Source: Cyclobacteriaceae bacterium (GTDB lineage Bacteria; Bacteroidota; Bacteroidia; Cytophagales; Cyclobacteriaceae). Taken from it: DNA of 64,000 nt. Position 1 is the first letter of the stretch. Every line of letters begins with the position of its first letter. The translations under genes were made by a program, and so were the position numbers. Positions 5,968 through 55,222 of this stretch are shown here, in pieces. The stretch covers positions 54,120 to 118,119 of the forward strand of contig JAAUQL010000001.1 of assembly GCA_012033595.1 (NCBI GenBank). Reading direction: 5' to 3'. The notes below the pieces were generated by a model, which made no database searches, had not been told where the DNA came from, and saw nothing but the letters and a program-made list of their open reading frames with translations.

Positions 5968-7551
5968 ATGGTGCTTCTACCCTTAGTCATTGCCTTTGTC
6001 CTCGGTTTTTTTATGCGCTTGTTCCGCTTGCCCCCAATGTTGGGATATCTGCTGGCTGGCTTTGCTTTACATGCCATGGGCATAGAGCGCAACGATACCA
6101 TAGAGCAAATATCTCATTTGGGTATTTTGCTGCTCTTGTTCACCATCGGCCTCAAGCTCAATATCAGGAGTCTCATCAGGAAGCATGTGTGGCGTGGAGG
6201 GATCGGCCATATGCTCACCACGGTGCTTATATTCAGTGTTGTTATGGGGGCATTATCCGTGCTCAGCATTTCTATTTTTGATCAGATGACCTTGCAATCC
6301 ATTGCTATTGTGGCATTTGCACTTAGTTTTTCCAGTACTGTGTTTGCCGTAAAGGTGCTGGAAGAAAAGGGTGAAATGCAGAGTCTTCAGGGAAAGACGG
6401 CAATTTCGATCCTTATAATACAAGACATACTTGCAGTCGCTTTTCTGGTTTTTCAAAGGTGAATTTCCGTCTATTTGGGCTGTATTGCTACTGGGGTTTC
6501 CGCTATTGCGTAAGCCTTTGCTCTGGCTCATGAACCGGACTGGCCATGGAGAAATGATGGTACTTTTTGGGTTTTTGGTGGCCTTGGGCGGGGCGCAATT
6601 GTTTGCTGAAATGGGGCTCAAGGCCGATCTCGGTGCTTTGGTGGCCGGGCTGGTGGTAGCCAATAGCCAAAAATCGGATGAATTGTCCAAAACCTTGCTC
6701 AACTTTAAAGAATTTTTCCTGGTGGCTTTTTTTCTGAATATCGGTCTCACAGGCACACCTCAATGGTGGATGTTGGGCGTTTCTATGGTTTTTATTGTGC
6801 TTATACCTGTCAAAAGCTTTTTGTACTTCTGGATTTTAACGCATTTTCATGTGCGCGCGCGTACTTCTTTTTGGATATCCTGAGTCTCTCCAATTATAGC
6901 GAGTTTGCCCTCATTGTAGCCAGTGTGGCCTATTCTGCCAATTTGCTAAGTGCAGACTGGGTGCTGATTGCCTCCATCACCGTGTCTTTGTCATTTTTAA
7001 TCTCCAGTCCCTTAAACTCCTATTTTTATTTTTCAAAATTCGAAAAATTTTTAATGAGGTTCGAACGCAAAAAGAGGTTGGCCGATGACAGACCCATCCA
7101 AATAGGCGGAGCCGATATTCTCATATTTGGCATGGACAAAATCGGTACGATGGCCTACGACTACCTCGCATCAAAGTATGGAAGCCACGTGCTGGGCCTG
7201 GATGCCGACTATAATGTGGTGCTGATGCACAAAAAGGAACGGCGCAATGTGATCATCGGCGATGCGACCGATTCGGGTTTCTGGGAAAACCTGCAACCCG
7301 GCAATGTCTCTATGGTGCTGCTGACCATGACCAACCACAGCGCCAATAAGTTTGCAGCCATCAGGTTGAGGCATAGCAATTTCACTGGTTGGATATCGGC
7401 TGTGGGGCGCTACGAAGATGAAATTCTGGAGTTGAAAAATATGGGGGTAAATTCAGTTTTCAATATTTACGAAGAAGCTGGAATTGGATTTGCCGAGCAT
7501 ATTTGTGAAGCACTGGAAACCAGAGAAGGTCAAAGCCAACAAATCACTTAA
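5968..7551 (+). CDS. CPA2-type monovalent cation:proton antiporter with C-terminal TrkA-N domain, broken into three frames by two frameshifts
   Basis: ORFs 5968-6462, 6431-6883 and 6763-7551 form one Kef-like protein; shifts at T5 (~6455, 'ctggtttttcaaagg') and T5 (~6872, 'acttctttttggat'). Confidence 0.85.
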
Positions 7552-20686: not shown

Positions 20687-21928
20687 CTAAGCTTTGCTGG
20701 TAGATTTGTAATATATCGTATTGCAATTTTCAGGCACCAGGATTTCTCCGGCCATTTGTTCTATTTCTTGCCGACTCACCTTTCCGATTCGCTCAATTTC
20801 GTCATTGATCAGACTGGTGTCGCCCAGGGCATTGGACAGCGATAAGTTAATGGCTTTGTTGAGCAGCTCTGTTTCGGCAAAGTAGGTGGTAGATTGGGCC
20901 TGGTTGATCACTTTTTCTATATCCTCTTGCTTGAGTGTAGCTTTCAGGGAGGTAATTTCTTCCAGAATATACTGTTCTGCTTTTTCCAGAGATACCCCGG
21001 GGTTAACTTTGCCGGAAACCACCAACAGTCCGGGATCTGCCGATCCGGTGATGTAAGCGTTGATATTGCTGAAAATCTGCTCCTCTTTGACCAGATGCTG
21101 GTACAAGGGCGAAGATTTGCCATGACCCAGCACATCGCTCAGCAGGTCAGCGACAACATATTTTTTATCTGTTCTACCCGGCATGTGGTAGGCTTTGTAA
21201 ATGGCATCGAGCGGTACGTTTTCCTCTATCTGCAAGTGCCTGCCCGTAAGTTGAGGCAGCTCTACGGGCAAATTCTCTATCTGTGCTGTACCCCGGGGAA
21301 TGTTGCCAAACCACTTGCCAACCAGGTCGATGGCAAGCTGGTGGTTTATATTTCCCGCAAGGGTAATTACGGCATTTTCGGGACCGTAGAAGGTGCTGTG
21401 AAACTGCTGTACGTCGTTGAGGGAAGCATTTTCTATATGACCGATCTCTTTGCCGATGGTGGCCCACCGGTATGGGTGTGTTTTGTAAGCCAAAGGCCGA
21501 AGTTTGAGCCAGACGTCGCCATAGGGCACATTCAGATATCGCTGCTTAAATTCTTCTATGACTACATTTTTTTGAGTGTCGAGGCTTTTTTGATCCAGAT
21601 TCAAAAATTGCATCCTGTCAGACTCTACCCATAAGGCAGTTTCTATATTTTCTGCACCCAAAATAATATAGTAGTTGGTGATATCGGTATTGGTAAAGGC
21701 ATTGTTTTCTGCGCCGACTTGTTGCAGTCTTTTGTCATAGTCGGGTACATGCCTCGAACCACCAAACATAAGGTGCTCAAAAAGATGGGCAAAACCGGTT
21801 TTGTCTGGGTGCTCGTTTCTTGAGCCTACTTTGTACAATATGTTTACCACCAGCAGAGGTGTGTTTTGATCCGTATTGGTTATGAGGGTGAGCCCATTGG
21901 GGAATACATGTTGCTGATATGCGATCAT
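20687..21928 (-). CDS. M16 family metallopeptidase (pitrilysin-like)
   Basis: Inverted zinc motif 'GFAHLFEHLMFGGS'; start 'MIAYQQHVFPNGLTLI' at 21928. Confidence 0.92.
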   Translation of the reverse strand: MIAYQQHVFPNGLTLITNTDQNTPLLVVNILYKVGSRNEHPDKTGFAHLFEHLMFGGSRHVPDYDKRLQQVGAENNAFTNTDITNYYIILGAENIETALWVESDRMQFLNLDQKSLDTQKNVVIEEFKQRYLNVPYGDVWLKLRPLAYKTHPYRWATIGKEIGHIENASLNDVQQFHSTFYGPENAVITLAGNINHQLAIDLVGKWFGNIPRGTAQIENLPVELPQLTGRHLQIEENVPLDAIYKAYHMPGRTDKKYVVADLLSDVLGHGKSSPLYQHLVKEEQIFSNINAYITGSADPGLLVVSGKVNPGVSLEKAEQYILEEITSLKATLKQEDIEKVINQAQSTTYFAETELLNKAINLSLSNALGDTSLINDEIERIGKVSRQEIEQMAGEILVPENCNTIYYKSTSKA

Positions 21929-22093
21929 AAGTTTTTTTAAAAATCCAAAAATACAATAAATACAAAATAAGTAGGCCTTGGCCACCTCCGGGTTATACTA
22001 TATCAAAAGAATACTATTTTCATGTATTTATTACAATCCATATCTTAAAGCAGCGTAATAATGATATAAATTATCGGAAATGATATCTTTGAA

Positions 22094-24279
22094 TTGCAAA
22101 ATGCATATTTGGCGTTTATTCTCATCAATAGGCTAAGAATCAGTTTGGTAAACAGGTCGATATATCCATCAAAAAGGAACTTCATCGTTGTGATGTGCGT
22201 GCTGGTGTTCATGGCTGTTTTGCCAGTGCATCAGCAACTACATGCCCAATCGAAGGCGCCAACCAGGTTGAAAACCGAACAGGGAGGTGAGCAGCGCCGA
22301 AAAGCTTCGGAGCGGGTAAGAAAGCGAAAAAGCAAAGGAAATATAAAAAGCAAAAGCAAAATACTTGAAAAGGCTTATTATAAAAAGAAGAGCAGTCAGA
22401 GTAATTTTCCGGGCAATATTTGGATAGATCCCAAGCCCAAAGATTTTACGGCCATTAAAGAACGCGTGGAGAAAAATCCTTCACGCAAAAACCTGAAAGC
22501 CCAAAAAAACCGCCAGGCTTACTTCAGGGCAAGCTCCAACGAAAAAAACAAGAGCTTTGGCAGTGCATTTGTACCCCGGCAGCAGTCACGACTCAACTAT
22601 CGATATGCTTCTAAAGCCATTTTAAAAAGCAAGGGCAATTCGAAATCTCTGGCTTCGAAGAGCAATTACCGAAGGTCGAGCAGAAAAATTCAGCGACACA
22701 GTGGAAATATATTTGTGCAACCTGAAGCCACCAAACGCGATTTCAATGAAATAAAAACCGGGTAGAGAAGAACCCCGGAAGGTCGATGGCGCGCCAAATG
22801 AAGAGCAGACAAAACAAAGCGGTAGCCAATGCAGCCCTCACCCAAAACTACCGGGGGGACGTAAATACCAAGGCGATGAAATCCAAAACCCTGAACTACA
22901 AATATGCTTCAGGAACCATACAAAAATCCAGGGGAGATTTGAAGAGTAGCAGATTGAAAAATGCAGAAAGCCTCAGAAAGTCAAACGCTACCATGTCGGC
23001 CAATTACCGTGGAAGCATGGTGCTGCCATCTAAAAATGCCAGGCGATTGCGCTATGAATATGCCTCGCGCACTGCACAAAAAAGTGGAGGAAGCCTGAAA
23101 CAACCATCAAAATCGCCAGGCCCTCAACTCACCTCCAACTGGCGCGGAGATATCATATTCAACGACAAAAGGGGCAAAAAGCAATGGGCAAAATACGAAT
23201 CGAAAATGCAAACAGGATATAGTGGCGATTTGAAAAGAAAAAACCACCCCCGCTCCGCCGGTGCCAACCCCTGGGTGACACAGCATGCCGGCAATATAAA
23301 AGTGTACAGCCAACAAAGGCAATCAAACATGGCCCGGTCAGATGCCAAAGTTTCGGGCAACTATGCGGGCAACATCAGGGCACTTTCCAAAAAATCGCGC
23401 AACCAGGAATTGCAAGGCAAATCCATGATCAGCACGGGTTATGAAGGCAATATTGCCGTTTTGTCTAAAAAGGAGCAGGATCGAAGAACAAAGAAGAATG
23501 CCACCTTTACAGGCAACTTTTCGGGAAACATCAAAACCATAGACCAGAAATATAAAAAGCAGGAAGTAGAAGCAAAATCGCTGTCGTATTCCTCGTACCA
23601 GGGGAATTTGAAAATCAGGAAAAGAAATGCCGATGAACCAAGGCAGCCCAGAACCAATGTGCAGTCTTCGGCTTACCAGGGCGATGTGGTGATAACCGCC
23701 CGCGAACGCAACAAGCTGAACTACCAGTACCAGTCGCAGGTGCAGCACCAATACCAGGGAGATATCAAAGTGAAGGATCATTCCAGGTTTCTGGATAGAC
23801 GGAAGGAATTTTCGAATATAATGGCTACATACCAAGGCGAAATAAAAGTACCACAGCGCGATTTTCAAGACCGGCAATACGAGCATAAATCCAAAGAAAT
23901 GGGCAATTTCGAGGGTAATATAAAAATGACGCGAAGTGATATAAAGGAAAAACAATACGAGCACATGTCGAAAGTTGCACACAATTTTAGCGGCAATATC
24001 AGGGTGCGGCGCAGCGCTGCCAACGACAGGTATTACAGGGATTTATCGGATCGCAATCAGCAATTGATTGGCAACTACAGGGTAAAAACCAGGCTAGCTA
24101 AAGATATAGAAGAACAAATTACTTCGGCAAAAGTTCACAACTACGAGGGAGGACCCAAGCTGAGCCTTGTTTCGAGGATGTGGCTAAAGATGTTTGACAA
24201 AAGCGGAAAACTGGAAAAGGCAGACGACACCATCAGAAAACCCAAATACGACAGTAGAGAATATAAAATTTGGTATTGA
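22094..24279 (+). CDS. Secreted, basic tandem-repeat protein (about 20 x 'aromatic-x-G-[N/D]-[I/L]-K'), one frameshift at ~22752
   Basis: ORFs 22094-22765 and 22786-24279; one extra base at 'aaaccgggtagag' restores 'EIKTRVEKNPGRSMARQMKSRQNK', paralleling the upstream 'AIKERVEKNPSRKNLKAQKNRQ'. Signal region 'IVVMCVLVFMAVLPVHQQLHAQ'. Confidence 0.8.
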
Positions 24280-24283
24280 TACT

Positions 24284-24601
24284 ATGCAGAAATTAAAATC
24301 AACTGAAAAGCTAAACGAAATCATAAAAGAATCATTTGTACATCCTCAACTGATATTCAAGCATAGCAACCGCTGCTCCATCAGCGCTATGGCCCACAGC
24401 AGAATGCGGCCATTTGAGGGCAGACCAGCCACATATATTATAGATGTAGTGGCCGACCGGTCGCTATCGCAAGAAATTGCCCGGGTGTTTGGTGTGGTAC
24501 ATCAGTCGCCTCAGGTGCTGGTGATCAAGGATGGGAAATGCGTGTATGACCATTCGCATATGGGAATATCGGCTCCGGAAGTAGAACGCCAATTGACCTG
24601 A
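24284..24601 (+). CDS. YtxJ/BrxC-like monothiol bacilliredoxin
   Basis: 105 aa from ATG 24284; 'LIFKHSNRCSISAMAHSRM', 'QEIARVFGVVHQSPQVLVIKDGKCVYDHSHMGI'. Confidence 0.8.
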   Translation: MQKLKSTEKLNEIIKESFVHPQLIFKHSNRCSISAMAHSRMRPFEGRPATYIIDVVADRSLSQEIARVFGVVHQSPQVLVIKDGKCVYDHSHMGISAPEVERQLT

Positions 24602-24716: not shown

Positions 24717-25424
24717 ATGAAAAAGATATCCATCATATTCGCATTGCTATTGGTTGGGATCTGTGCACAGCAGACGCAGGCTCAATATAGTGGCGACTAT
24801 GAGTATAGTTCTGAAATGCTCTGGGGTATAACCAAAGCCACCAACAGCGGGCTTATAGGTGGTTTTATTTTTAAATATAATAAAGAACTAAAGGAGGATC
24901 ATTTTCATGGAGGTGTGCTGGAAATTGTTAATATCAAGCACCCGCAAGAGCAACGGTACTATCGTGAAAATTCCTTTATTTTGGGCAAGCAGCATTATTT
25001 GTACAGCATTAGGTTGTCTTATTCCAGAGAATACACCATTTTTAAGAAAGCATCGCAGCAGGGCGTGCAGGTCAACGGTATCCTGTCCGCAGGGCCAACC
25101 ATAGGTCTGGAGGCACCATACTATGTAGAAGTGGGGTATGGGAATTTCAGCAGAAACGAGCCTTACGACCCAAACAAAAGTCAAAACATATTGGGTAGCG
25201 GTTATGTGCTACAGGGTCTTGGAGAATCGTCGATAGTACCAGGACTAAATCTGAAAGCGGGGGTGTCTTTCGAATTTGGCAGCTTCAAGTCGAATGTGGT
25301 CGGGCTTGAGGTAGGCTTTCAAAGTGATATTTTTACCAGGAAAATCATCATAATGCCCGCCACCGAAAATTATAGCATCTTCCCTTCGGCCTATGTCACG
25401 CTCTTCTACGGGTCGCGTAGATAA
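24717..25424 (+). CDS. Conserved secreted/outer-membrane beta-barrel-like protein
   Basis: 235 aa; signal peptide 'MKKISIIFALLLVGICAQQTQAQ', alternating aromatic strands, C-terminal aromatic strand 'AYVTLFYGSRR'. Confidence 0.7.
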   Translation: MKKISIIFALLLVGICAQQTQAQYSGDYEYSSEMLWGITKATNSGLIGGFIFKYNKELKEDHFHGGVLEIVNIKHPQEQRYYRENSFILGKQHYLYSIRLSYSREYTIFKKASQQGVQVNGILSAGPTIGLEAPYYVEVGYGNFSRNEPYDPNKSQNILGSGYVLQGLGESSIVPGLNLKAGVSFEFGSFKSNVVGLEVGFQSDIFTRKIIIMPATENYSIFPSAYVTLFYGSRR

Positions 25425-25486: not shown

Positions 25487-26359
25487 ATGATAGAATTACC
25501 AGTTGTTAACGAGCAGAAAGAAAGGACAAAAAAGCCAAGCTGGCTAAGGGTAAAACTGCCCATCGGAAAGGAATATCTCAAGGTGAGGGGTCTGGTAGAT
25601 CAGTACAAGCTGCACACCATTTGCGAAAGCGGCAACTGCCCGAATATGGGCGAGTGTTGGGGTGCGGGTACTGCCACTTTTATGATTCTCGGAAATGTAT
25701 GCACCCGAGGCTGTTCATTTTGTGCGGTAGCTACTGGTCGTCCTCCCGAATACGATACTGAAGAACCAGGCCGCGTGGCCGAAGCCATAAAACTAATGGG
25801 CGTAAAGCACGCAGTGCTAACTTCCGTAAACCGCGATGAGCTCAAAGACCGTGGTGCAGAAATTTGGTACCAGACTGTGGTGAAGATCAAAGAACTTAGT
25901 CCGGAGACCACCATCGAAACGCTGATCCCCGATGTAAAGAGCACTTGGGATGCCCTGATACGCATGATTAGTGGAGGGCAGGAAATAGTATCGCACAATC
26001 TCGAAACCGTAGAGCGCTTGTACAGACGTGTAAGACCACAAGCCAAATATGCCCGCAGCCTGGAGCAAATAAAGCGCACAAAAGCGTATGGCAAAAAAAC
26101 CAAGTCGGGCATTATGGTTGGACTAGGAGAGCAGGATGAGGAGGTATTTAAAACCATGGACGACCTGGCAGCGCATGGCTGCGATGTAATGACCATCGGT
26201 CAGTATCTGCAACCTACCAGGCTGCACCATGAAGTACTCGAATTTGTGCACCCCGACAAATTTGCGCTTTACAAAGAAGAAGGCTTGAAACGAGGCCTTG
26301 CCTATGTAGAATCTGGCCCGCTGGTAAGGTCGTCTTATCATGCCGAAAGGCATTTGTAG
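25487..26359 (+). CDS. lipA: Lipoyl synthase
   Basis: 290 aa; '[41 protein letters not shown]' contains both FeS cysteine motifs. Confidence 0.97.
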
Positions 26360-40842: not shown

Positions 40843-43247
40843 ATGGGAAATAGCAATACACCGGTATGTTTTCATTGTGGCGAGCACTGCGAGCGAGAGC
40901 ATATTGTCTTCGAAGAAAAGGACTTTTGCTGCAATGGCTGCAAAACGGTGTATGAAATCCTGAACCAAAACGACCTGTGCGTCTATTACGACCTGGAGAA
41001 AAACCCCGGCATCAGCCTGAAAAGCAAAAAGTTCGACGACAAATATGCATATCTCGACAACGACGACATTTCCAAACTGATACTCGATTTTATAAATGGC
41101 GACAAGGCCAAGGTTACTTTCTACATCCCATCCATCCATTGCAGTTCATGTATCTGGCTCCTGGAAAACATGTACAAACTCACCGATGGTATTGAGCACA
41201 GCAGGGTAAACTTTGTAAAAAAAGAATTCAGTGCCGACTTCAACCCCAATGTGATATCTGTTCGCAAGATGGTGGAGCTGCTCGCCACCTTAGGATATGA
41301 GCCAAATATTAGTCTGGAAGACAGCACTTTAAAGGACGACAAATCCATCAACCGCAGCCTGTATCTCAAGATTGGCGTGGCGGCCTTTGCCTTTGGCAAT
41401 ATTATGTTGCTGAGCTTTGCCGAGTATTTTGGTTTCGAAGGTCTGGAGCCTGGCATACAGCGCTTCATGTCCTACCTCAATATTTTGCTTGCTCTGCCCG
41501 TGGTTTTTTATTGTGCAAGCGACTATTTCAGATCGGCCTATGCCGGGCTACGACAGCGCTACATCAATATCGATGTGCCCATCTCGCTGGGTATCATTGT
41601 GCTATTTGTGCGCAGCCTGTACGAGATCATTAGCATGTCGGGTCCGGGCTATCTCGATTCACTGGCCGGACTGCTGTTTTTTTGCTGGTGGGTCGCTGGT
41701 TCCAAAACTATACCTATCAGGGGCTGTCTTTTGACAGAGATTACAAATCGTACTTTCCCCTGGCCATCTTCATATGGAAAAACGGCGAGCTGGTGAGCAT
41801 ACCTGTAAATGAGATCAAAAAAGGTGATGAGATCAGGGTCCGCAATCAGGAGATTATCCCAGCCGACAGTATGTTGAAAAGTGCGCACGCCAATATCGAC
41901 TACAGCTTTGTGACGGGTGAGTCGAACCCGGTTGCTAAGAGATTGGGCGACTACATCTACGCAGGTGGCCGCCAAATGGGCGAGAGCATCAGTCTGGAGG
42001 TGGTGAAGCCCGTGTCGCAAAGCTACCTGACCCAGCTATGGAACAACGATGCCTTTACCAAAGATAGGGATCAGAGCTTCGAAATACTAATTAATAAAAT
42101 CAGCAAATACTTTACCGTCGCCGTATTGCTCATCGGCTTAGGCGGGTTTTTGTACTGGGTAGGTCAGGACTTAAAGACCGCCCTAAACGCCCTCACCGCC
42201 GTGCTGATTGTCGCTTGCCCATGTGCACTCACACTATCGGCTCCATTTACCATGGGCACCACCATGCGCATTTTTGGCAAGCGCAATTTTTTTATAAAAA
42301 ATGTAAATGTGATCGAACGCCTCTTGCACATCACTCATATCGTTTTTGACAAAACGGGCACCATCACCTACAACCATAAAAGCAACGTGAGCTACGAAGG
42401 CAATCTGGTGGCCCAGCAAGAAAAACGCAGCATCAAGGCCCTGGCGATGAACTCCACGCATCCGCTCAGCAGGTTGCTGGCCGAGAGCATCGACGAAGAC
42501 ATAGACAACATTAGCCTGGAAAAATTTGAGGAAATTACCGGGGAAGGTCTGCAAGCCATAGTCGGTGGCGATGCCTACAAGTTGGGCAACCGTGACTTTG
42601 TGACCCTGGATCACAGTCAGACTTTTGCCCGAGCCGATGCTACGCAGATATTCGTGTCGAAAAACGAACAAGTACTCGGTCGTTTTAAAATCGAAAACAA
42701 ATACCGTAAAGGAATAGACCAGATAGTGGCAAGGCTAAAAGCCAGGTTCCGTTTTTCGATACTCACAGGCGACAACAAGACCGAAGAGCAAAGGCTAATC
42801 GGTCTCTTTGGCCTCTCAACCACGTATCGGTTCGGACAATCGCCACAACTCAAGCTCGATTACATTTGGAAACTGCAAAATGACAAGGATAAGGTGCTCA
42901 TGATAGGGGATGGGCTCAACGATGCCGGTGCCTTGCGACAAAGCGATATAGGTATATCGGTAACCGACGACACCTCCAATTTTACTCCGGCCTCCGATGC
43001 CATCATGACCTCCAATTCGTTGCAGTACCTGCCGGATTTTTTGGATTTTTCGCGTATTGCGCACCGCATTGTAGTAGCCGCATTTGTCATATCATTTATG
43101 TACAATATTTTTGGGATCACCTTTGCCCTTACGGGAAATCTGACGCCGCTGGTGGCAGCCATACTGATGCCGCTCAGCAGCATCTCTGTAGTGGTTTTTG
43201 CCACTACCGTCACCAACCTGATGGCAAAATTGAAAAAACTACTTTGA
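40843..43247 (+). CDS. ccoI: CcoI/FixI-type heavy-metal translocating P-type ATPase, one frameshift
   Basis: ORFs 40843-41796 and 41682-43247 join at T7 (~41680) as 'AGLLFFLLVGRWFQNYTYQG'; 'CPCALTLSAPF', 'DKTGTIT', 'GDGLNDAGAL'. Confidence 0.92.

Positions 43248-50557: not shown

Positions 50558-55222
<4,665 letters not shown>

Follow-up and report, generated by a model that had tools for sequence, protein, structure and literature searches.

Sequence-based characterisation of a Cytophagales family of predicted exported, basic tandem-repeat proteins with a conserved C-terminal tail

Gene structure at the locus

The analysed window is a stretch of 64,000 nucleotides from a member of the Cyclobacteriaceae. 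Within it, the interval 22094-24279 on the forward strand comprises two open reading frames, the upstream one in frame 2 and the downstream one in frame 1 (Table 1). Judged from sequence comparison, the two are a single gene split by a one-base frameshift, since the repeat gene is one intact open frame of 755-815 aa in all six genus relatives and the junction is crossed with one single-base gap in the DNA alignment to the nearest relative. The first-pass annotation was right to treat the interval as one gene, but it had joined two ORFs lying in different frames under the label 'frame-corrected' and had placed the start at 22094. The start codon is more likely the TTG at 22145, because the in-frame L-V-N-R found there corresponds to the start of most genus relatives.

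Three further conserved genes of the window are likewise split into ORFs that overlap but differ in frame: a sodium/proton exchanger-TrkA gene (5968-7551), a P-type ATPase gene (40843-43247) and a beta-galactosidase gene (50558-54504). Together they suggest indel errors in the assembly. Given these split genes and the unbroken frames of the genus relatives, the frameshift in the window copy is probably an assembly indel error as well, and the gene itself is probably unbroken in the source organism. The placement of the two halves in different frames would also be expected of a decaying gene with a genuine frameshift, dead in the source organism. We give this reading little probability, as 497 codons past the break are still open and the tail is intact, the relatives are unbroken, and at least three other genes of the window are split in the same way. 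Programmed frameshifting was rejected because the relatives, with their single open frames, need none.

Table 1. Features of the repeat gene and its neighbours in the window
Feature	Position	Strand	Evidence and remarks
M16 peptidase, divergent upstream neighbour	20687..21985	-	Pfam M16_C 3e-35
Repeat gene, part 1	22145..22765	+	N-terminal repeats preceded by the signal peptide (to about the AQ/S junction); called ORF 22094-22765; no family match
Frameshift site	22745..22770	+	Frame ends at TAG 22763-22765; one single-base gap against nearest relative
Repeat gene, part 2	22786..24279	+	Tandem repeats of 26 aa, then the conserved C-terminal module; no second copy in own genome
C-terminal module, ~88 aa, defines family	24013..24276	+	Ends KPKYDSREYKIWY; tail P, D, E and W 90-100% in family
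ytxJ/BrxC-like bacilliredoxin	24284..24601	+	Pfam BrxC 5.6e-31, TIGR04019 1.1e-30
Outer-membrane beta-barrel, OmpX/OmpW/OmpA-TM type	24717..25424	+	AlphaFold pLDDT 90, pTM 0.78; Foldseek Ail/NspA/OmpX/OmpW
lipA, lipoyl synthase, ends conserved gene row	25487..26359	+	TIGR00510 7.5e-105; synteny

Signal peptide, composition and repeats

The repeat protein begins with a signal peptide that ends near LHAQS and has a Lys/Arg share of 21-24%; the composition of the second ORF is 21% Lys/Arg, 5.6% Tyr, 6% Gly and 10% Ser. The strict motif [YFW]xG[NDE][ILVM] was observed 13 times. In 2000 shuffles it appeared 0.066 times on average and never more than 3 times, and the tandem repeats described in the first-pass annotation are therefore genuine. 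The individual motifs that it quoted were found as given, and their spacing is sharper than the 20-30 aa it had proposed: through most of the second ORF the period is exactly 26 aa. Its signal peptide, its Lys/Arg richness and its distinct C-terminal tail also held up, the tail KPKYDSREYKIWY being conserved in the family.

At the DNA level the repeat gene has no detectable tandem repeats except a short 6-base tract, so the repeat units have diverged in the window copy. Near-identical units of 50-52 aa were found in sister species (L036 and L034), which implies that the repeat number turns over.

Distribution and variability of the family

Searches of Pfam, NCBIfam, PHROGs and PDB sequences gave no named-family match above noise for the repeat protein, in agreement with the earlier failure to recognise a named domain (the Pfam, NCBIfam and PDB searches gave no usable match). 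Neither MORN nor any other curated repeat model matched significantly, and literature searches for such a family returned nothing relevant. Family members were detected by profile searches in 88 of 391 Cytophagales genomes (77 of the 352 good ones), and in a phylum sample of 396 genomes the only ones matched were the window's own and three others of its family; these counts are lower bounds, as the profile may miss distant members. On such sequence searches, the repeat protein represents an unnamed family seen only in the order Cytophagales. The gene is single-copy in its own genome and in relatives. No family member was found even at E<=1 in Belliella, Indibacter, Aquiflexum, Mariniradius, Arthrospiribacter and Cognataquiflexum, six genera that probably form one clade.

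A set of 100 members, including a few duplicate loci from the same genome, ranges in length from 234 to 1123 aa and is variable in sequence. The dominant repeat periods vary from 16 to 85 aa, with 43 and 52 the commonest, and most members begin with a clear signal peptide. The isoelectric point lies between 9.7 and 11.7 across the set, and the charge-hydropathy rule classes all 100 members as disordered. The signal peptide, pI above 9.5 and predicted disorder that serve as a test for the family were all found in the window protein. Across these relatives, repeat length and sequence drift while positive charge and predicted disorder persist.

The C-terminal module and tail

Conservation in the family is concentrated in the C-terminal ~88 residues and is strongest in the tail. 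The family was tested for a tail of the type P-x-[YFHN]-[DM]-x-x-E-x-x-[IL]-W among the final 60 residues; the window protein's own tail has it, as do all 61 members checked, whose ending is of the type P-x-[YF]-D-x-x-E-x-x-[IL]-W. Just ahead of the tail, most of the order has a motif resembling Y-x-G-[ND]-[IL].

Of 8 genomes scanned with a DNA pattern for the tail, 4 gave a match, in each case in the repeat gene alone. Because this pattern is strict, variant tails escape it; the result argues against a common sorting signal, but rare copies are still possible. A shared C-terminal sorting signal, which the first-pass annotation had proposed to look for, was rejected because the tail motif is single per genome where found. 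Cargo of the type IX secretion system (T9SS) resembles the repeat protein in belonging to Bacteroidota, in being exported and in having a conserved C-terminus, but the repeat protein has no sorting-domain match and its tail, of ~13 aa, is unique to one protein per genome. The Pfam and NCBIfam searches detected no T9SS C-terminal domain in the repeat protein, and no lipobox was found in it.

Predicted structure

AlphaFold2 modelling of the second ORF from a 62-sequence alignment gave a mean pLDDT of 54.1 and a pTM of 0.21, with half of the residues below a pLDDT of 50, although such low values may also reflect poorly aligned repeats (mean column identity 14%). The model consists of isolated helices of 13-18 residues between the motifs and almost no strand. 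A test for a beta-solenoid or beta-roll failed, there being no regular strands in a confident model. These predictions fit a mostly disordered chain. The earlier proposal of a beta-structured protein is thus not borne out by a nearly strandless model of helices and coil; disorder across the repeat region, which had been named as grounds for abandoning that proposal, is largely what AlphaFold and the charge-hydropathy rule predict. MORN repeats are likewise built of Y-x-G units in tandem and of comparable length (~23 aa; 26 aa in the window protein). In contrast to the window protein, which has no Pfam match, they fold as a beta sheet and carry additional conserved glycines, absent from the window protein.

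Gene neighbourhood

Across Cytophagales the full gene row comprises, in sequence, a divergent M16 peptidase, a fused E1 dehydrogenase, a small lipoprotein, the repeat gene, ytxJ, OsmC, the barrel and lipA; the small lipoprotein occurs in several families outside that of the window, and OsmC is often present on the opposite strand. Neighbours were counted in loci fetched by the repeat gene, leaving out barrel-fetched loci as biased for the barrel. On this basis ytxJ is adjacent in 29 of 48 loci, the barrel lies downstream in 24 of 44, and E1 lies upstream in 24 of 42; the M16 peptidase is divergent upstream in 22 of 42 and the small lipoprotein is present in 15 of 42. The row of ytxJ, OmpX/W-like barrel and lipA is found in the window and in most relatives. 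E1 and the small lipoprotein are not adjacent to the window copy, and the fused E1 dehydrogenase is missing from window positions 21985-22145, as it is in the genus relatives examined. With its ATG 4 bases past the stop of the repeat gene, ytxJ is by position alone a co-operonic neighbour.

The barrel family has no Pfam name and is confidently predicted to be OmpX/OmpW-like; it is kept beside lipA in Cytophagales with or without the repeat gene. Since it occurs in the six genera named above that have no repeat protein, the barrel does not depend on the latter. Adjacency is weak evidence of shared function here, because cytoplasmic metabolic genes (E1, lipA and ytxJ) stand in the row as well. 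The small lipoproteins constitute an undescribed family of 57-148 aa (L194:8149-8412, L080:10220-10519, L089:8327-8635 and 21 other loci). Their lipobox Cys is invariant, a second Cys, followed by Pro, lies after it, and the basic end bears a GL[IV]xKK-like motif. They adjoin the repeat gene in many Cytophagales families, that of the window not among them, and the window's genome gave no convincing match. At one locus (L089:11776-17043), genes that look by sequence like those of a phage-tail-like contractile injection system lie slightly downstream of the repeat gene. Overall, the kind of protein encoded is ordinary, an exported disordered repeat polycation, and what is unusual is its strict tail and the long-kept gene row.

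Possible roles and alternatives

The reading that we favour, with about even confidence, is that of an exported, flexible and largely disordered polycation that binds an anionic envelope polymer while its tail docks on a conserved partner. The chain would be exported by Sec, and its repeats would act as many weak, interchangeable grips on a polymer such as peptidoglycan or lipopolysaccharide, each grip pairing Lys/Arg with a YxG[ND]IK turn, which includes tyrosine and lies between short helices. Docking on one conserved partner might then fall to the ~88-aa C-terminal module with its tail; candidates for that partner are the nearby OmpX/OmpW-like barrel and, in loci that have it, the small basic lipoprotein. 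Located in the periplasm or at the outer membrane, such a chain would form a linker or coat that is flexible and multivalent. The putative binding of anionic polymers, which the first-pass annotation had also considered, fits the conserved charge and composition. As neither a T9SS C-terminal domain nor a lipobox was found, a periplasmic location or one on the inner face of the outer membrane is at least as likely as the surface.

Mycobacterial HBHA, a secreted Lys-rich repeat adhesin, offers a parallel as an exported, cationic protein with low-complexity repeats thought to bind anionic polysaccharide. The two proteins have no sequence relation that we could find and differ in composition and phylum, and the conserved tail is unique to the Cytophagales protein. 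Mussel foot proteins, which are Tyr/Lys repeat polycations, are similarly disordered, with a pI of ~10 and Tyr-Lys-Gly-rich tandem repeats, but they are a eukaryotic extracellular glue without homology to the Cytophagales protein, for which the analysis gave no sign of exit from the cell. An extracellular adhesive or matrix protein forming a Lys/Tyr-rich coacervate in the mussel manner would suit the Lys, Arg, Tyr, Gly and Ser content of the second ORF given above, the low complexity and the fast repeat turnover among relatives; since neither a T9SS C-terminal domain nor any other known way across the outer membrane was detected, we rate this as improbable.

The exact 26-aa spacing and the sharp motif in this genus, together with the similar motif that immediately precedes the tail across most of the order, would be explained by a scaffold in which each YxG[ND][IL]K turn is a linear motif binding one copy of a protein partner, so that many copies are strung along the chain and charge is secondary. 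The number of motifs per member, though, varies from 0 to 18, with some members having none or one, whereas charge is kept in every member, and a scaffold of this kind appears unlikely to us. A part in gliding motility or type IX secretion was also considered. The repeat gene is present (L194:8423-9373) in a genome that we take to be that of Cytophaga hutchinsonii, a known glider, although looking for publications by likely locus tags of this copy turned up none, and it is absent from the six genera without family members, which are described as non-motile. This link is weakened by Chryseosolibacter and Dawidia, which carry the repeat gene though described as non-motile (PMC9296434). The absences, moreover, likely fall in one clade and may amount to one loss. 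A GldJ model matched 170 of 177 genomes of the order, against 88 of 391 for the repeat gene, although this search did not separate GldJ from GldK and is non-discriminating. Such a part seems to us highly improbable.

Returning to the envelope-binding polycation, a more specific and rather unlikely extension is that the repeat protein, the small CP-motif lipoprotein and the OmpX/OmpW-like barrel make up an undescribed Cytophagales envelope module, in which an exported, freely length-changing disordered polycation, held by its near-invariant tail, would link or organise the outer membrane and the layer beneath.

Significance

The family has no name in the searched databases, and its members, spread over the order, drift in sequence yet retain charge, disorder, export and a short tail. 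It may thus be a clear natural example of a function that depends on composition together with one docking motif. In Bacteroidota, to our knowledge, little has been established about how the outer membrane is attached to the underlying layers. If an anionic ligand and a tail partner were found, the repeat protein would represent a new kind of envelope linker for this phylum.
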